Below are positions 34,463 through 58,470 of a stretch of 64,000 nucleotides of DNA, piece after piece. Below the pieces are notes generated by a model. The model was not told the origin of the DNA. It did not search any database and saw nothing but the letters and a program-made list of their open reading frames with translations. The stretch's first letter is position 1. The number at the start of each line of letters is the position of its first letter. This DNA is from Arthrobacter methylotrophus (lineage in GTDB: Bacteria; Actinomycetota; Actinomycetes; Actinomycetales; Micrococcaceae). Location of the stretch: the NCBI RefSeq assembly GCF_039539965.1, contig NZ_BAABED010000001.1, forward strand, positions 2,666,001 through 2,730,000, given 5' to 3'. A program made the position numbers and the translations under genes.

Positions 34463-35547
34463 GTGATGCCGTGGAAGGATACGCGGGCAACTCGTCTCTT
34501 CGATGTTGAGCTCCCTATCGTCCTTGGCCCTTTCGGTGGCCTGTCCTCGGTGGAGCTTTCCGCCACGGTCAGCGATGCCGGGGGACTGGGTTCGTATGGA
34601 CTCTACGGATTTGATCCGGAACGGATTGCGGCCACGGCCTGCGAGCTCAAGGAGGCCAGCGGGAAGCCGTTTGCCCTGAACCTCTGGCTTCCCATCGAGG
34701 GCGAAGAGGCGCCAAGCGTGGATGCCGAGCAATTCGCCGCCTATGTGGACATCCTCCGGCCCTATTTCGAACGGGTGGGCGTGGACCCGCCTGAGCAGCC
34801 CGAGCACTACCTGCCGGATCTGGAGAGTCAGATCCAGGCGGCCATCGACGCCCGTCCGGCCGTGCTGAGCTTCGTGTTCGGGGTCCGTCGGAATCCGTTA
34901 TTGAACAAGCCCACCGGAACAACGTTGTTGTAGTAGGCACGGCGACCACTGTGGACGAAGCCGTGGCCCTCGCCGCCGGCGGAGTGGACGCCATCGTTGC
35001 CACGGGGATGGAAGCCGGCGGCCACCGGGTATCTTTCCGCCGTGCTCCGGAAGATTCGCTGGTCGGAACCATGGCCCTTGTCCCGCAAGTGGTGGATGCG
35101 GTCTCCGTTCCGGTCATCGCCGCGGGAGGTATCGCAGATGGCCGCGGGGTCGCTGCCGCTCTCGCCCTCGGTGCGGATGCGGTCCAGATCGGTTCGGCTT
35201 TCCTTGGCACGCGCCAGTCTGCCGCCAGCCCGGCCCACGTGGCTGCGCTGCACGGCCCCGACGCCGCCCATACAGTCCTGACACGTGCCCTCAGCGGCCG
35301 CTTGGCACGCGGTATCCCCAACTTGATCATCGCGGAGCTTGCCGACCCCTCGGCCCATGCCCCGTTCCCCATCCAGAACTGGCTGACCGGCAAGTTTCGG
35401 CCTGCTGCGGCAGCCCAAGGAGTCCCTGGCCTGATGTCCCTGTGGGCAGGCCAATCGACGCCGCTCATCCGGGAGGACGACGCGCGGAAACTCGTGGAGA
35501 CCATCGTCGAGTCGGTTGACGCCATCTTCGGGCGGTTCGCCGACTAG
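34463..35547 (+). pseudogene. Nitronate monooxygenase interrupted by a one-base frameshift
   Basis: FMN-dependent enzyme that oxidises alkyl nitronates. The first part (34463-34933 frame) matches the family up to VLSFVFGV; then the frame reads RRNPLLNK and stops. The family sequence continues in the +2 frame as PSESVIEQAHRNNVVVVGTA and runs through to 35547 with GGVDAIVATGMEAGGHRVSF, the FMN-phosphate loops and GTRQSAASPAHV. Adding one base near 34885, most simply a C in GTCCG, restores a single 361-residue frame of normal length. The product is probably inactive if the base is truly missing; a sequencing error in a short C run is equally possible. The gene follows DinB and its stop codon overlaps that of cydDC. 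Confidence 0.85.
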
Positions 35548-38500
35548 CCTCCGGGTACCAGCGCCGGGCTCTCCTTCGGGGCTTCGAGGTCGAGCCGGGC
35601 GTCCGCCTCGCCGATCTCGACCGGGTTGTGGGTCACGAGGACCACCGTGACATCCTTCAGCCCGCTGCGGAGTTCCGCCATCATGAGGCGCCCGGCTTCA
35701 GCATCGAGGTGGGCGGTCGGCTCGTCGAGGAGGAGGACTTTCGCTCCGGTCAGCAGCGTTCTGGCCATGGCGAGCCGTTGGCGTTCGCCGCCGCTCAGGA
35801 ACGACCCCGAGGGGCCGATGCGGCTATCGAGTCCGCCGGGAAGGCCGGCTACCAGTCCGGAAAGGCCGACAGCGCGCAAGGCCTTGCACATGTCCGTTTC
35901 GGAAGGCTTGCCGGTGGCGGGGCGGGCGAGCAGCAGGTTGCCGCGGATAGTGGAGTCGAACAGGTGGGCTTCTTGGGGACACCATGCGGCATTCCCGCTG
36001 AGATACGCCCTGCCGGACGAGGCAGGCAGGAAGCCGAGCAGCACAGAGAGTAGCGTGGATTTTCCGGAACCGGAGGGGCCGGTGACCGCGAGCCAGCGGC
36101 CGGGGACCGCCTCGGCGCTAAGCCCGGTGAAGACGGGCGCGCCACCGGGCCAAGACGCTCCGAGGCCGTCCAACAGCAGCCCCTGGGAACTGTCAGGTCG
36201 CTCCGCCAAGGCCAGCACACCGCCGTCGGACACTGGCATGTCAAAAGCCCCGGAGCGGGCGATACGCCGCAGCACTGCGGCCAAAGCGGGGGCTTGCCGT
36301 ACGGCGGACACCACTGCTCCGTAGGGTTCCGCGAGCGCCAATTGGAGAAGGACGACGACGGCCAGCAAGGCGGGTGCAACGGTTCCGGACTGCACCGAGG
36401 GCGCAGCGAGGATGCCCGCCGCGAGCGCTCCCAGCGTGCAGGCGAGCACCGCAGCCCCCTGGCCTATGCCGTCGGCCCACGCGGAACGCTGTGCCGCGGC
36501 GGTGGCTGCGTTGTCCCGCTTGGTCAAGGAGCTCAGAACGGCCCCGGCCACACCATTGGCGCTGAGTTCGGCACGGGCATCGAGGGCGGATGCAACGTCA
36601 CGCAGCACCAGCGAGCGCAATTGCTGTTCGCCGCGCGCGGCATTGCGGTCCGCCACCAGGGCAAGGAGAGGCGCCAGGACAACGCCAACCACGGCGGTTG
36701 CGATGACAGCCGGCACCGTGGCGGGCGCCAGAAAGGCCGAGGCGACCACCGCCGATACCGCGACGGCAAGTGCGGAAAGGGGCGGCAGTACGACGCGCGG
36801 CAGCACGTCGCGCAAGGTATCGACGTCGTCCACCACGGCGCCCAGGACGTTCCCGCCTTGCAGAAGCCTGCGGAGGGACAGCGCCCGCGCGCTGAGCGCC
36901 GCCCACAGCGTACCCCGGAGCCTTGTCATCGCGGCGAAGACGGTGTCGTGGACGAGGAGCCGCTCGGCATAGCGCAGCACCGCCCGGCCAATACCAAAGA
37001 ACCGCACCCCCACGATGGCGCCCAGCAGGTACAGGATCGGAGGCTGCTGGCTGGCCCGGATGATGAGCCAGCCGGACAGTCCGGACAAAGCCACGGCAAA
37101 CAAGGCGGCGAGCGCCGCAACGAGCGCGGCGCCGGCAAACTTGTAGCGGACCGGGGCCAGGATCCGCGCCAGGTCCTTGACCGTGGAGAGAAGGATGGGG
37201 GGTTCAATTCCCCGGTCCGGTGTGGCTGCGGGATTCGTGTCCCGCTGGACCGGAGCTGCCGCCGATACGGCGGAGTCCTGGTGCACGGAGCCGACGTGCT
37301 CCTGTGCCGTCCCGCCGTCGATCTTCACTGGGTCGATCTTCACTACGTTGTGCGCCAGTTTCCGGGTCGCAGCGTCGTGGGCAACCAGGATGACCGTCGC
37401 ATTCCCGCGCAGTCCCGCGATCACCGTGCGGATGGCGTCGGCGGAGGCGACGTCTAGGTGGGCGGTGGGTTCGTCGAGGAGCAGCACAGTGGCTCCCGCG
37501 TTAAGGCGCGCCAAGCCGCGGGCCACAGCGGCCCGCCGCACTTCGCCGGGGCTCAACTCGGCAGGATGTTTGAGGGCGAGGTGTTCCGCTGCAGCCTGTT
37601 CCAGGCAGCGCATTGCCGTTGCAATGTCCGCGTCTGGCGCGGAATCCTGGCTTCCGTTGTTCAGGTAGAGGAGGATCTCGTCCAGCACCGTCCCGGCCAC
37701 CATGACGGGATGCTGCGGCACCCACGCCACTGTACCGGCCTTCAGGCCGGTGACGGATCCCGTGATCGAGGCCTGCGGACCGTCGCCGATCGTCCCGGCA
37801 AGGACGCCGAGAAGGGTGCTTTTTCCCGAACCGCTGCGGCCGTCGAGGGCCGTGATTTGCCCTTCGGGTGCATGGAAATCGATAGGCCCGACGGCGGCTG
37901 CGTCCCTTCCCGCATAGCGCACCGTCAATCCGGTCACCCCGACGCCGGGCTCGCTGCCGGAAACCGGCTCGTTGGCCGAAAGGCAGCCAAGCGGACTGCC
38001 CGCCGGCGACTCCAACACTGCGTTGCTTGCAGCCAATGCCTCGCGGCCCTCGTCGCTGGCGTGGTGGGCCGTCCCCAGCTCTCGCAGAGGAAGATAGCAA
38101 TCGGGGGCGAGGATGAGTGCCAGCAAGCCCGCTTCAAGGCCCATGTCACCGGCCACGAGTCGCACCCCGATGAAGACGGCCACGACGGCCACCGAAATGG
38201 TGGCTATGAGCTCCAGGGCAAGGGCGGACAAGAAGGCAATCCGCAGGGTTCCCATGGTCCGTGAGCGGTATTCCTCCGAGAGGTCCTCAAGGGCTGCACG
38301 CTGTTCGCCCGCGCGGCCCAGTCCCACGAGCACGGGAAGCCCCTTGGCCAGCTCGAGGATGTGCCCTGAGAGCCTCCTCAACGTGGATTGGGCTCCGTGA
38401 ACCTGGTCCTCGGTGTGGCGGCCGATCAGCACCATGAACAGCGGCACCAAGGGTAGGGTCACCACCACAACGACGGCACTGACCCAGTCCGCGAAGAAGA

Positions 38501-38939
38501 TCCGGACTCCAAGGAGCAGTGGTATTGCTGCGCAGTTGACCAAGGCGGGCAGGAACTGGGTGTAGTAGTTGTCGAGCGCATCGAGTCCGCGGGTCGCGAG
38601 CACCGCCAGCCCGCCGTCGTTGACTTCCCCGACCCTTCCCGCAGCCCCCGTACCGAGGGCACGCCCCAAGAGCCGGGACCGCAGTTCTTCCTTTACCCCC
38701 AGTGCGGCCCGGCGGGCCGCAACAGCCTGGCCCCAGACGGTCAGGGAGCGCAGCACTGCTCCGGTGGCGCCCCAGAGAAGTCCTTCCCGCCAGCCGGTGC
38801 CGCCCGCTGCAAGTCCGGACAGCATTCCTGCGATGGACTGCGCAATCAGGACGAGGGACAAGGCCTTGAGCGAAGACAGCAAGCCAAGGACGTACAGGGC
38901 GGATCGCGTGGCCGGCCCGGCGGGCAACTGGGGCTTCAT
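35544..38939 (-). CDS. cydDC: Fused thiol-reductant ABC exporter CydD-CydC
   Basis: A 1131-residue single-chain ABC exporter needed for assembly of cytochrome bd; in E. coli CydD and CydC are separate and export glutathione and cysteine. The CydD half covers about residues 1-560: membrane domain, then Walker A GRSGSGKST (367-375) and the ABC signature as LSPGE. The CydC half (about 590-1131) repeats the order: Walker A GPSGSGKST (954-962) and signature LSGGERQRLAMARTLL (from 1048). Both Walker B motifs are VLLLDEPTAHLD. The linker between halves is polar. It begins 3 bases after cydB and is the last gene of cydA-cydB-cydDC. Confidence 0.9.
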   Translation of the reverse strand: MKPQLPAGPATRSALYVLGLLSSLKALSLVLIAQSIAGMLSGLAAGGTGWREGLLWGATGAVLRSLTVWGQAVAARRAALGVKEELRSRLLGRALGTGAAGRVGEVNDGGLAVLATRGLDALDNYYTQFLPALVNCAAIPLLLGVRIFFADWVSAVVVVVTLPLVPLFMVLIGRHTEDQVHGAQSTLRRLSGHILELAKGLPVLVGLGRAGEQRAALEDLSEEYRSRTMGTLRIAFLSALALELIATISVAVVAVFIGVRLVAGDMGLEAGLLALILAPDCYLPLRELGTAHHASDEGREALAASNAVLESPAGSPLGCLSANEPVSGSEPGVGVTGLTVRYAGRDAAAVGPIDFHAPEGQITALDGRSGSGKSTLLGVLAGTIGDGPQASITGSVTGLKAGTVAWVPQHPVMVAGTVLDEILLYLNNGSQDSAPDADIATAMRCLEQAAAEHLALKHPAELSPGEVRRAAVARGLARLNAGATVLLLDEPTAHLDVASADAIRTVIAGLRGNATVILVAHDAATRKLAHNVVKIDPVKIDGGTAQEHVGSVHQDSAVSAAAPVQRDTNPAATPDRGIEPPILLSTVKDLARILAPVRYKFAGAALVAALAALFAVALSGLSGWLIIRASQQPPILYLLGAIVGVRFFGIGRAVLRYAERLLVHDTVFAAMTRLRGTLWAALSARALSLRRLLQGGNVLGAVVDDVDTLRDVLPRVVLPPLSALAVAVSAVVASAFLAPATVPAVIATAVVGVVLAPLLALVADRNAARGEQQLRSLVLRDVASALDARAELSANGVAGAVLSSLTKRDNAATAAAQRSAWADGIGQGAAVLACTLGALAAGILAAPSVQSGTVAPALLAVVVLLQLALAEPYGAVVSAVRQAPALAAVLRRIARSGAFDMPVSDGGVLALAERPDSSQGLLLDGLGASWPGGAPVFTGLSAEAVPGRWLAVTGPSGSGKSTLLSVLLGFLPASSGRAYLSGNAAWCPQEAHLFDSTIRGNLLLARPATGKPSETDMCKALRAVGLSGLVAGLPGGLDSRIGPSGSFLSGGERQRLAMARTLLTGAKVLLLDEPTAHLDAEAGRLMMAELRSGLKDVTVVLVTHNPVEIGEADARLDLEAPKESPALVPGG

Positions 38940-38942
38940 CCG

Positions 38943-40040
38943 CTACTCGCTGGCGTTGTGGCGGGCGTGGTTGGCAGCAGTGCCGCCCGGTGACTCGTTG
39001 CCGACGAGCACTTTGGCGGCGATGGCCGGCAGGAATCCATGCGCTGCCGGAATGTGTGCCGCGCTCACCCGCCGGCGGAACACCCAATAGGTCCACGCCT
39101 GGTACGCGATGACGAGAGGCAGACCGACGGCCGCCACGATGCTCATCAAGCCCAGGGTGTAGGCGGAGGACGAGGCGTTGGAGACCGTGAGGTTGAAGGC
39201 GGGATCCAAGGTCGAAGGAATGACCACGGGGAAGGCGGCGCCGAAGATGGATCCGGTAGCGCACACCAGGAACGCACCCAAGGCTCCGAAGGCCTTGCCC
39301 TCAGCACCCTGGCGCGCGAGAACCCAGGCCACTGCGGCCGCCACCACTGCCAGGATCACGAGCAACCACGTCCACGGCTTCCCGCTCAGGAGCTGGACAG
39401 CCACTGCCCATGCCAGCAACGGCAGTAACGCAACGGGCGCAAGCCGCACAAACCAGCGGCGCGCACGGTGCCGCACGTCGCCGTCGGTCTTCAATGCCAG
39501 GAAGGCCAAAGCGTGCACCAAGGCAAAGGCTGCGACCGCGAGGCCGCCCAGCACGGCGTACCCGCTGAACCAGGCGAATGCTCCGCCTTGGCGGTCGCCG
39601 TTCGAGTCGAGCGGGAGCCCCGTGGTGGTCAGGGCCAGGGCCGCGCCGATGCCGAAGGAGGCCGTGAACGAGCCCACGGCAATCGCCCAGTCCCAGACCG
39701 TACGCCAGCGCGCATTGTCCACCTTGCCGCGGTACTCGAAAGCCACCGCCCGGAAGATCAGGGCCACCAGGACGATCAACAAGGGCAGGTAGAGCGCTGA
39801 GAACAACGCGGCATACCAGAGCGGGAAAGCCGCGAATGTGGCACCGGCCGCGGTCAGCAGCCACACTTCGTTTCCGTCCCATACCGGACCGACCGTGTTG
39901 AGCAACACGCGGCGTTCGGTATTGTTCCGGGCGAAGAGTTTCATGAGCATTCCGACGCCGAGGTCGAAGCCCTCCAGGAAGAGATATCCCGTCCACAGCA
40001 CGGCGATGGCCACGAACCAGACGGTAGGCAACAGTTCCAT
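38943..40040 (-). CDS. cydB: Cytochrome bd ubiquinol/menaquinol oxidase subunit II
   Basis: A 365-residue integral membrane subunit with about nine hydrophobic segments. The start, LPTVWFVAIAVLWTGYLFLE followed by GFDLGVGML, is the family signature, as are VGPVWDGNEVWLLTAAGATF and FPLWYAALFSALYLPL. It forms the heterodimer with CydA and reduces oxygen to water under low oxygen. It starts 18 bases after cydA and 3 bases before cydDC, so the three genes form one operon. Confidence 0.93.
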   Translation of the reverse strand: MELLPTVWFVAIAVLWTGYLFLEGFDLGVGMLMKLFARNNTERRVLLNTVGPVWDGNEVWLLTAAGATFAAFPLWYAALFSALYLPLLIVLVALIFRAVAFEYRGKVDNARWRTVWDWAIAVGSFTASFGIGAALALTTTGLPLDSNGDRQGGAFAWFSGYAVLGGLAVAAFALVHALAFLALKTDGDVRHRARRWFVRLAPVALLPLLAWAVAVQLLSGKPWTWLLVILAVVAAAVAWVLARQGAEGKAFGALGAFLVCATGSIFGAAFPVVIPSTLDPAFNLTVSNASSSAYTLGLMSIVAAVGLPLVIAYQAWTYWVFRRRVSAAHIPAAHGFLPAIAAKVLVGNESPGGTAANHARHNASE

Positions 40041-40058: not shown

Positions 40059-41675
40059 CTAGTAGGCGAATGCCAGGACGTCGTCTGGCGTGCCGGGCTC
40101 CCCCGGAGCGCCCGGGGTCCCGCCGTCGCCGTCCTTCTTCTTTTCGTTCTTTTCGCCGTGGCCGGCCTCGGCGAGCTCGGGCATGGCGGAGGCCACGCCA
40201 CCGCGGACATATTTGACCAGAAGGCGGACTTCCACCACCAACAGCACGGCGTAGATGGAAGACAACACCACCAGTGAGGTGATGAGCTCGGCGGCGGAAA
40301 CCCCGGGCGACACGGCCGCAGCGGTGAACATGAACACTTGGTCAATACCGCTCGCGTCCGGATTGGGCGCGACGACGAAAGGCTGACGGCCCATCTCGGT
40401 GAAGATCCAGCCGGCGGCGTTGGCCCCAAAAGGGGCCAGGATACCGAAGACAGCCAGCCGCATGATCCAGCGGGATTGGGGCACCACGCCCTTGCGCGTC
40501 ACCCACAGGGCCAGCAAAGCAGCGAAAGCGGCGATGCCGCCGAAACCGATCATCATGCGGAATCCCCAGTACGTCACTTCCATGACGGGCACGTATTGGA
40601 TTTGCTGCCCGGCGCGGTCCCCGTACAGGGGATCGTTCGGCAGGTTCGTGCCGTACTTGGCTTTGTATACGTCCAGGAGGCCGTTGACGCCTTTCACTTC
40701 CGTGGTGAAATCGCCCTTGGCCAGGAAGGAGAGGATGCCGGGAACTTCGATCACGGCGACGATGTCGTTGCAGTTCTTCGAGCCGACGTTGCCGACGCTC
40801 AGGACGGAGAATCCCGTGCCGTCGTGGCAAGCGGCCTCGGCCGCGGCCATCTTCATGGGCTGTTGTTCGAACATCAACTTGCCCTGCATATCACCCGTGA
40901 AAGCGGTGCCGGCAAAAGAGATCATGGCGACGACCGCACCGATCCGCAAGGAGCGGATCCACACTTTGTAGTCGGCCTTGTCCCGCCCCGGGATGTTGGT
41001 CTCGCCCGCAATGGCACGGCCGTCGGCTCCGACCGTGTCAATGCCGTCGTGGCGGCGGCGCCAAAGGTGGTACCAGGCAATTCCCAGGAGGAAGGCGCCG
41101 GCGACCCCCAGCGCGCCGAAGAGCGTGTGCGGCACGGCCACGAGTGCCGTGTTGTTGGTGAAAACTGCCCAGGCGTCCGTCATGACGGGCCGTCCGTTGA
41201 CCATCTGGACGCCGACCGGGTGCTGCATCCAGGAGTTGGCAACGATGATGAAGTAGGCCGAGAAGACCGAGCCGATCACCGCGATCCAGAGGCACGCGAG
41301 GTGGACACCGCGCTTGAGCTGCTTCCAGCCGAAGATCCACAGCCCCAGAAAGGTGGATTCAACAAAGAACGCGAGAAGCGCTTCGAGGGCCAACGGCGCG
41401 CCGAAGATGTCTCCCACAAAGCGGCTGTATTCGCTCCAGGCCATGCCGAATTGGAATTCCTGCACGATGCCCGTGGCCACGCCCATGATGAAGTTGATGA
41501 GGAAGAGCTTGCCCCAGAACTTGGTCATCCGAAGGTATTCCACCTTGCCAGTGCGGTACCAAAGAGTCTGGATGACGGCTACAACGAGTCCCAGCCCAAT
41601 GGTCAGCGGCACCATCATGAAGTGATAGACCGTGGTGATTCCAAATTGCCAGCGTGCGATTTCCAAGGCGTCCAT
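40059..41675 (-). CDS. cydA: Cytochrome bd ubiquinol/menaquinol oxidase subunit I
   Basis: A 538-residue membrane subunit that carries hemes b558, b595 and d. His18 in RWQFGITTVYHFMMVPLTIG corresponds to a heme ligand of E. coli CydA (His19). GRQPFVVAPNP lies in the quinol-binding region, preceded by EMTYWGFRMMIGFGG-type sequence (VTYWGFRMMIGFGG). The C-terminal ~40 residues are a hydrophilic Gly/Glu/Lys-rich tail. AAGGA precedes the ATG. Its promoter region contains two perfect 17-base operators (41717-41733, 41742-41758), so it is likely repressed by the divergent BlaI-family protein. Confidence 0.94.
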   Translation of the reverse strand: MDALEIARWQFGITTVYHFMMVPLTIGLGLVVAVIQTLWYRTGKVEYLRMTKFWGKLFLINFIMGVATGIVQEFQFGMAWSEYSRFVGDIFGAPLALEALLAFFVESTFLGLWIFGWKQLKRGVHLACLWIAVIGSVFSAYFIIVANSWMQHPVGVQMVNGRPVMTDAWAVFTNNTALVAVPHTLFGALGVAGAFLLGIAWYHLWRRRHDGIDTVGADGRAIAGETNIPGRDKADYKVWIRSLRIGAVVAMISFAGTAFTGDMQGKLMFEQQPMKMAAAEAACHDGTGFSVLSVGNVGSKNCNDIVAVIEVPGILSFLAKGDFTTEVKGVNGLLDVYKAKYGTNLPNDPLYGDRAGQQIQYVPVMEVTYWGFRMMIGFGGIAAFAALLALWVTRKGVVPQSRWIMRLAVFGILAPFGANAAGWIFTEMGRQPFVVAPNPDASGIDQVFMFTAAAVSPGVSAAELITSLVVLSSIYAVLLVVEVRLLVKYVRGGVASAMPELAEAGHGEKNEKKKDGDGGTPGAPGEPGTPDDVLAFAY

Positions 41676-41716
41676 GGCTGTCCTTATTATCCGGCCGTCC
41701 GCTTGCGGCGTTCATT

Positions 41717-41733
41717 TTCTACGCTGCGTAGAA
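41717..41733. promoter_or_regulatory. BlaI-type operator 1 (cydA-proximal)
   Basis: TTCTACGCTGCGTAGAA, a perfect 17-base palindrome 42 bases upstream of the cydA start. The TAC/GTA core is that of BlaI/MecI operators. Confidence 0.8.
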
Positions 41734-41741
41734 ATTTCTTC

Positions 41742-41758
41742 TTCTACACAGTGTAGAA
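41742..41758. promoter_or_regulatory. BlaI-type operator 2
   Basis: TTCTACACAGTGTAGAA, a second perfect palindrome. Its centre is 25 bases from that of operator 1, so two dimers could bind on nearby faces of the DNA. Confidence 0.8.
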
Positions 41759-41829
41759 CAAGCCTCTGCGATATTTTCACCACTCTTCCAGTGGCGCCGC
41801 AGCGCCGCAAGGACACGCCGGGCAGCATG

Positions 41830-41846
41830 TTCTACCTCACGTAGAA
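41830..41846. promoter_or_regulatory. BlaI-type operator 3 (blaI-proximal)
   Basis: TTCTACCTCACGTAGAA has the same 6-base arms around a non-palindromic centre. It lies 104 bases before the blaI-like start and may serve autoregulation. Confidence 0.75.
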
Positions 41847-41949
41847 TCGCGAGCCGAAAAGCTGTAGATTGAAGGTGGAATGTTGGATTCATCGCGCACC
41901 CCCACCCGTACAACGGAGCAGGGAAAGTGCGGAAAGTAGGGATGCATTG

Positions 41950-42336
41950 ATGGCAAGTCTTGGCGAACTGGAACGGGCGGTCATGGATCTGCTCTGGGCG
42001 GGCCAGGAGGCTGCGACAGCCAACAAACTTCGTGATCTGCTGGCGCAGGATTCCGCCGCAGTGGATGGCAACGCGGGACATCAGGGCAAGGACCTCGCAG
42101 TCACCACAGTGCTGACTGTTCTGTCCCGCCTTGAGAAGAAAGGCCTCGTGGAGCGCGAACGCGGGACCCGCCCACACCGCTACCAGGCAGTGTCGAGCCG
42201 CGCCGACCACACGGCAGACCTCATGCACGAGGCCCTGGGTTCCGCCCCGGACCGGGAAGCCGTGCTGGCCCGGTTCATTGGTTCCGTGAGCGAGAGTGAA
42301 GCCGCCACGCTGCGCAAGCTGCTCGGCAAAAACTAA
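41950..42336 (+). CDS. BlaI/MecI/CopY-family transcriptional repressor
   Basis: A 128-residue winged-helix repressor. The DNA-binding part reads LGELERAVMDLLWAG, then TTVLTVLSRLEKKGLVERER, the recognition helix and wing of BlaI/MecI, followed by a dimerisation helix region ending in SEAATLRKLLGKN. In the family, a cognate BlaR1-type protease triggers cleavage and release from DNA. ATG at 41950 is the start, since the domain begins there; upstream sequence in frame carries no family residues. It is followed after 6 bases by an M56 metallopeptidase, the expected partner, and its own operator lies upstream. Confidence 0.9.
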   Translation: MASLGELERAVMDLLWAGQEAATANKLRDLLAQDSAAVDGNAGHQGKDLAVTTVLTVLSRLEKKGLVERERGTRPHRYQAVSSRADHTADLMHEALGSAPDREAVLARFIGSVSESEAATLRKLLGKN

Positions 42337-42342
42337 CCACCC

Positions 42343-43335
42343 ATGTTCTGGACCTCATATTTTCTGGCGGTCCTTGCTCTGGTACTGGCATGGCCGGTTC
42401 CTGTACTTTTGTCGCGCGCCGAATGGCCGGCTCGCGCACCGTTCATGGCCATGGTCCTCTGGCAGGCCATCGCGCTTGCCGGTGGCCTCTCGATGATCGG
42501 GGCCATGCTTGTCTACGGACTTGAGCCGATCGGCGACAACCTCATCGCCGGGCTGCGTTCCCTGGCCGGCATGGTGCTTCACAACGAGCCCACTACGGCG
42601 CTGGGGTTCTGGCATTTGTTCGCCTTGTCCGCGGCAGCCCTGCTGAGCGCCCATCTCGTCTTCACCCTGCTGCTCACCTACATCAAGATCGAACGGCAGC
42701 GACGGAGGCACCGCGAACTTCTCGCGCTTCTGGCGTCGCCCTCCGACGACGGCCCCGGCACCGTGGTCATCAACCACGACTCCCCCGTCGCCTACTGCCT
42801 GCCCGGCGGCGCGCGGTCCGTCACAGTGCTCTCGGACGGCCTGATGGCAGCCTTGGAGCCTGCCGAGCTCAGGGCAGTCCTGATCCACGAGAACGCGCAT
42901 CTTTCGCAGCGGCACGACCTTCTTCTGTGGGCCTTCGCCGCTTGGCGCCAGGCGCTGCCTTGGTTCCCCACCACGCGACTCGCCCAGGTTGCAGTCAACT
43001 CCTTGATCGAGATGCTCGCCGATGACGTGGCGCTGCGCACCGAGAGCAAGGGAACGCTCATCAAGGCGATCGCGATCGTGGCCGGCGGTTCCGCCCGACC
43101 GATTGAGCAATTCGCGCCTCCTGCACCAAACACCGGGGCACCTTCCCCCGACGACAGCACCTTCAGCGGGACCGGCGGCGCCGATTCCCCGCGTACGACG
43201 GCGTCGCGCGTCAGCCGGCTGCTCTCGCCGAAGCCGCCACTTCCGCTTGGTCAGTGCGCCTTGGTCCTTGCTGCGTCGACCATGTTGCTCGCAGTGCCGA
43301 CAGGCCTGCTGATTGTGCCGGGTTTGCTGGGCTGA
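42343..43335 (+). CDS. M56-family membrane metallopeptidase (BlaR1-like)
   Basis: A 330-residue zinc peptidase with hydrophobic segments at about residues 3-24, 37-60, 88-113 and 298-325, so mostly three or four membrane passes. The zinc motif HEXXH is H182-E183-N-A-H186 in LIHENAHLSQRH. BlaR1/MecR1 proteins have an extracellular penicillin-binding sensor domain at the C-terminus; this protein ends after the last hydrophobic segment and has none. So the signal is not a beta-lactam. It resembles the short M56 proteins paired with BlaI in mycobacteria (Rv1845c). It is co-transcribed with blaI. Confidence 0.86.
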   Translation: MFWTSYFLAVLALVLAWPVPVLLSRAEWPARAPFMAMVLWQAIALAGGLSMIGAMLVYGLEPIGDNLIAGLRSLAGMVLHNEPTTALGFWHLFALSAAALLSAHLVFTLLLTYIKIERQRRRHRELLALLASPSDDGPGTVVINHDSPVAYCLPGGARSVTVLSDGLMAALEPAELRAVLIHENAHLSQRHDLLLWAFAAWRQALPWFPTTRLAQVAVNSLIEMLADDVALRTESKGTLIKAIAIVAGGSARPIEQFAPPAPNTGAPSPDDSTFSGTGGADSPRTTASRVSRLLSPKPPLPLGQCALVLAASTMLLAVPTGLLIVPGLLG

Positions 43336-58403: not shown

Positions 58404-58470
58404 CTCTTTGCGTTCATTTTGTTGCGTGGCTTTGCTACGGCACGTAGAAGCTTCTGGCTAAGCTTGGGCC

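Follow-up and report, generated by a model that had tools for sequence, protein, structure and literature searches.

The locus described here raises the question of what a BlaI repressor and an M56 (BlaR1-type) membrane metallopeptidase, a protein pair of drug resistance, are doing beside the genes of a respiratory oxidase. It lies in Arthrobacter methylotrophus, in a stretch of 64,000 nucleotides (G000:C1:2666001-2730000 of a 5.08 Mb genome) that is called the window below, and its blaI and M56 genes stand divergent to cydA of the cytochrome bd operon. A preliminary description of this DNA had proposed that the pair controls that operon, and the proposal is supported in outline, with operators that are conserved and travel with cydA and blaI. 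We consider it likely that BlaI and the M56 protease form a sensor-less BlaR1-type switch over cyd, haem, cytochrome and ATP synthase genes that is released by cleavage of BlaI. The pair appears to control high-affinity oxidase, haem-making and energy genes both in Arthrobacter and in many other actinobacteria.

The 274-base gap between the divergent cydA and blaI contains two perfect palindromes and one exact-arm site of the form TTCTAC-N5-GTAGAA (Table 1). Both of the perfect 17-base palindromes that had been described in the cydA promoter were recovered, as was the third site with the same arms before blaI, in which the arms are exact and one centre pair is mismatched. Predicted dyad operators at the repressor's own promoter and at the promoter of its target are what is expected of the BlaI/MecI family. 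The second cydA operator starts 25 bases from the start of the first, a spacing of 23-26 in 78 named loci. With up to two mismatches allowed, the window holds seven sites, whereas 100 shuffles set the expectation at 0.38 and never gave more than 2, and its only zero-mismatch sites are those at 41717, 41742 and 41830. Exact-arm sites number seven in the whole genome, where three simple background models expect 0.014-0.105. When one mismatch was allowed, the pattern occurred 17 times in the genome and a reversed control 19 times; therefore, a site counts as evidence only if it is exact or conserved. One such one-mismatch site, TGCTACGGCACGTAGAA at 58433-58449 of the window, lies away from the cyd locus. 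A sigma-70 promoter scan found no promoter.

By BlaI, the closest named relatives belong to Arthrobacter, Paenarthrobacter and Pseudarthrobacter. We looked for relatives that carry the pair without operators near cydA, and the outcome favours the switch, as the three exact sites, the divergent cydA and the M56 gene were found together in 78 of 80 named loci and in 29 of 30 loci of another same-genus set. The named loci without cydA beside blaI were L371 and L373. The operators stay with their genes even when these are apart. In G010, where 986 bases separate cydA from blaI, cydA retains the pair of sites and blaI its single one. In L369 (cydA 3.8 kb from blaI) the pair starts 27 and 50 bases before cydA, in L372 (3.5 kb) it starts 28 and 51 bases before, and in both loci blaI is preceded by its single site at a distance of 112 bases. 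G014 has only blaI's own site beside blaI, and cydA, about 12 kb off on the same contig, is preceded by a pair of its own at 30 and 53 bases.

Four further exact-arm sites were found in the home genome, before hemQ-hemH, a cytochrome c assembly operon, the flavohaemoglobin gene hmp and the gene of a small membrane protein, a 119-aa hydrophobic protein with no Pfam match. The histidine-phosphatase gene behind the assembly site is followed by ResA-like, CcdA-like, ResB and CcsA genes. A one-mismatch site precedes the ATP synthase operon; the heading frame has no Pfam match, is AtpI-like by place and is followed by the ATP synthase genes a, b, delta and alpha. These five non-cyd targets were searched in 37 same-genus genomes, and 30 loci per gene, the home genome included, were oriented by tblastn and then scored. 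The predicted sites were unchanged in 149 of 150 loci, compared to 0 of 150 for a reversed-arm control. The upstream site was exact in 30/30 loci each for cytochrome c assembly (ccs), hemQ and the small membrane protein and in 29/30 for hmp (one mismatch in 1/30), while the ATP synthase operon carried TTCTAT-N5-GTAGAA, with the same single change, in 30/30. Throughout, the arms were constant and the spacers variable. The respiratory oxidase thus stands as a predicted target and falls as the sole one, because haem, cytochrome c, nitric oxide (NO) detoxification and ATP synthase genes share the operator. The BlaI-M56 switch is well supported as part of a predicted respiration and haem regulon.

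Table 1. Features of the cyd-blaI locus (positions in the window) and predicted operators elsewhere in the home genome.
Feature	Position	Strand	Remarks
Predicted operator 1 of cydA	41717..41733	.	TTCTACGCTGCGTAGAA, perfect 17-base palindrome
Predicted operator 2 of cydA	41742..41758	.	TTCTACACAGTGTAGAA, perfect 17-base palindrome
Predicted operator of blaI	41830..41846	.	TTCTACCTCACGTAGAA, exact arms, one centre pair mismatched
blaI, 128-aa BlaI/MecI-family repressor	41950..42336	+	PF03965 72.8 bits, cut-off 22.6
M56 (BlaR1-type) membrane metallopeptidase, 330 aa	42343..43335	+	HENAH; no sensor domain match
cydA, cytochrome bd subunit I	40059..41675	-	PF01654 492.8 bits
cydB, cytochrome bd subunit II	38943..40040	-	PF02322 334.7 bits; TIGR00203 above cut-off
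cydDC, 1131-aa single frame, CydD and CydC halves	35544..38939	-	TIGR02857 and TIGR02868 above cut-off
Exact site before hemQ	62 bases upstream		Ferrochelatase after hemQ; HemY-like gene before
Exact site before cytochrome c assembly operon	L001 1501-1517, G000:C1:358758		56 bases ahead of histidine-phosphatase ATG
Exact site before flavohaemoglobin hmp	101 bases upstream		
Exact site before 119-aa protein	63 bases upstream; gene at L007 1564-1923		Hydrophobic stretches
One-mismatch site TTCTATCTCATGTAGAA	97 bases ahead of frame heading ATP synthase operon		

A divergent YceI gene lies about 150 bases from the cytochrome c assembly site, which may serve two promoters, that of the YceI gene included. 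Another one-mismatch site (G000:C1:1513366, L010) is flanked by two genes named by eye, one for an ABC-transporter ATPase and the other for a SufR-like regulator. Within the cyd operon itself, CydD and CydC are fused in one frame, and each half scores above its own NCBIfam cut-off.

When the whole class was searched, 191 of 295 genomes contained a BlaI match. A non-random set of 61 out-of-genus loci was chosen from the better matches, and 42 of these, from 12 families, have cyd genes beside blaI-M56. Linkage was seen in 11/11 loci of families f1 and f19, 14/15 of f33 and 17/35 elsewhere; it was not seen in f22 (0/6), f34 (0/3), f30 (0/1), f2 (0/1) and 6/7 f32 loci. All nine of the out-of-genus cydA frames checked by Pfam matched. 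In L214, L226 and L227, blaI-M56 also adjoins distant cydA types, ~26-27% identical to that of the window, which suggests a switch repeatedly associated with different bd oxidases. When a generalised operator, TWCKAC-N5-GTMGWA, was scored upstream of blaI in the 61 loci, it reached 12/12 in 35, 11 in 17, 10 in 2 and lower values in 7, compared to 0, 3, 9 and 49 loci, respectively, for the reversed control. Sites of 12/12 before blaI itself came from 11 families. Genome-wide exact searches of 16 genomes returned 35 sites (reversed control 5), of which 24 were at cyd or blaI and five at genes for a QcrC-like dihaem cytochrome c, hemQ, hmp, hemE and a ResA-like protein. The other six were at a CopC gene (G110), a small membrane protein, three places in G094 and one in G258. 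Since the reversed control gave five, single sites away from cyd are weak evidence; the recurrence of hemQ, hmp and resA sites across genomes is stronger evidence. In G154 and G279, cydA is not beside blaI, yet it has a site. Family f22 includes Rhodococcus-type genomes, judging by the G279 protease, which shares 97% identity with a Rhodococcoides kyotonense protein.

The proteins of the locus are consistent with such a switch. The sole Protein Data Bank match of the window BlaI by sequence at E <= 0.001 was 2g9w, which we take to be M. tuberculosis Rv1846c. The M56 protein had been described as carrying HENAH and lacking the penicillin sensor, and this was confirmed: no penicillin-binding or transpeptidase match was found in Pfam, though PF05569 (M56) itself scored 29.1 bits, just below its cut-off of 31, while PF01435 (M48) scored 37.1 bits, above its cut-off of 20.3. 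A precomputed Pfam list names both. A hydrophobic helix closes the chain at residue 330. The predicted fold consists of a transmembrane and a protease domain, and the best match of the model was S. aureus BlaR1 minus its sensor. The HExxH motif and the downstream Glu ligand of M56 BlaR1-type peptidases are present, and residues H182, E183, H186 and E223 were invariant in 53/53 sequences and each present in 71/72 of a broader set. Cys152, in the motif AYCxPG 30 residues ahead of HExxH, was found in 53/53 and in 68/72 of the broader set, and is a possible candidate for a redox or metal switch.

In the mechanism that we propose, a BlaI dimer would repress by binding the TTCTAC-N5-GTAGAA palindromes. 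It would occupy its own promoter, the cydABDC promoter twice, and one site each before hemQ-hemH, the cytochrome c assembly operon, hmp, the small membrane protein and the ATP synthase operon (as a one-base variant). The M56 protease would act like BlaR1 minus the beta-lactam sensor: a signal from the membrane or the respiratory chain, possibly linked to haem, would lead it to cut BlaI and free the operators, giving more high-affinity oxidase plus haem and cytochrome supply. Because blaI has its own operator, the switch would be self-limiting.

The core idea is already known for M. tuberculosis. PMC5473688 states, citing Sala 2009, that BlaI binds the bd-oxidase and ATP synthase promoters; the preliminary description had likewise mentioned a link of BlaI to respiratory genes (ATP synthase) in this species. 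The same source describes a mycobacterial BlaR without a sensor and the signal sensed by sensor-less BlaR proteins as unknown. BlaI reportedly binds at Rv1303, which belongs to the ATP synthase operon, and lowers ATP when overexpressed, while its knockdown brought no ATP rise (PMC12565901). According to PMC5874750, BlaI regulates the atp operon and SenX3-RegX3 regulates cydAB, and respiration-inhibiting drugs induce cydAB in mycobacteria. Nothing on BlaI control was found in the excerpts of PMC10581053 and PMC8829022. The literature matches listed contained no paper on the present locus or on BlaI and haem genes outside mycobacteria, and neither the wide cyd linkage nor haem or cytochrome targets appeared among them.

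Other explanations were weighed against this reading. Given the BlaI family and the BlaR1-like predicted fold, the pair could be a classical beta-lactam switch that senses cell-wall antibiotics and has respiratory genes as side targets, and BlaI does control blaC in M. tuberculosis (PMC5473688, PMC12565901). We regard this as improbable, given the missing sensor domain match and conserved named targets that are respiratory or haem genes; no beta-lactamase-like gene was seen among the frames beside the seven exact sites, a genome-wide search for one not having been made. As BlaI binding to the palindromes is a prediction, they could also belong to another regulator, with blaI a mere neighbour. 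This is very unlikely in view of the 12/12 sites before blaI in 11 families, an operator arm base that varies along with BlaI residue 55, the single site that remains with blaI once cydA is gone and the sites at unlinked cydA in G154 and G279. A CopY-type copper switch, hinted at by a weak TIGR02698 match and the CopC gene with a site in G110, is hardly credible, as that match reached 24.7 bits against a cut-off of 121.95 and the repressor has zero cysteines, whereas CopY/TcrY proteins carry them at the C-terminus.

The nature of the signal is a separate matter. Haem, in excess or shortage, could be sensed rather than the state of the respiratory chain, in a haem-homeostasis switch tuning haem synthesis and haem-protein assembly. 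The hemQ-hemH and cytochrome c assembly sites, kept in all same-genus loci scored, point this way, as do a hemE site and a hemQ site, each from a single genome outside the genus, and the finding by TnSeq that blaR of M. tuberculosis is essential on haem and haemoglobin (PMC7058343). The ATP synthase site, however, gives no hint of haem supply, and no haem-binding site was identified in M56, so we consider haem a possible but rather doubtful signal. Returning to the broader respiratory switch, we suggest only tentatively that the ancestral role of BlaI-M56 in actinobacteria is to sense the status of the respiratory chain or of haem, as a membrane-based equivalent of Rex/ArcAB, with beta-lactamase control a later use and a protease that reads the quinol pool, membrane energy or haem, perhaps via Cys152. 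A role of the repressor-protease pair in respiration may predate its role in drug resistance or have existed alongside it. If true, the ancestral-sensor reading could help explain the rise of cydAB under respiration-inhibiting drugs in mycobacteria (PMC5874750). The compact set of about seven promoters, mostly of respiration and haem genes and conserved in soil bacteria, makes the question of the sensor-less BlaR signal directly testable, and a drug-resistance protein pair is recast as a likely respiratory regulator.

Compared to known systems, the Arthrobacter pair differs from S. aureus BlaR1-BlaI and MecR1-MecI in having no penicillin-binding sensor, respiratory targets and TTCTAC operator arms. 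CopY/TcrY copper repressors stand at the same Pfam superfamily level as BlaI and have TACA-like palindromes; the window BlaI does not come near the CopY cut-off. In Streptomyces, Rex adjusts cyd and haem genes to the respiratory state, as ArcAB/ResDE do in other bacteria; these proteins are unrelated to BlaI-M56, for which a proteolytic membrane switch is predicted. The nearest counterpart is BlaI-BlaR (Rv1846c-Rv1845c) of M. tuberculosis, in which BlaR is likewise sensor-less and BlaI is reported to bind the bd oxidase and ATP synthase promoters, both of which have predicted sites in Arthrobacter. Descriptions of the mycobacterial pair centre on blaC and cell division (PMC12565901), whereas the present pair adjoins cyd, with no bla target seen beside its sites, and its predicted targets extend to hemQ-hemH, cytochrome c assembly and hmp.
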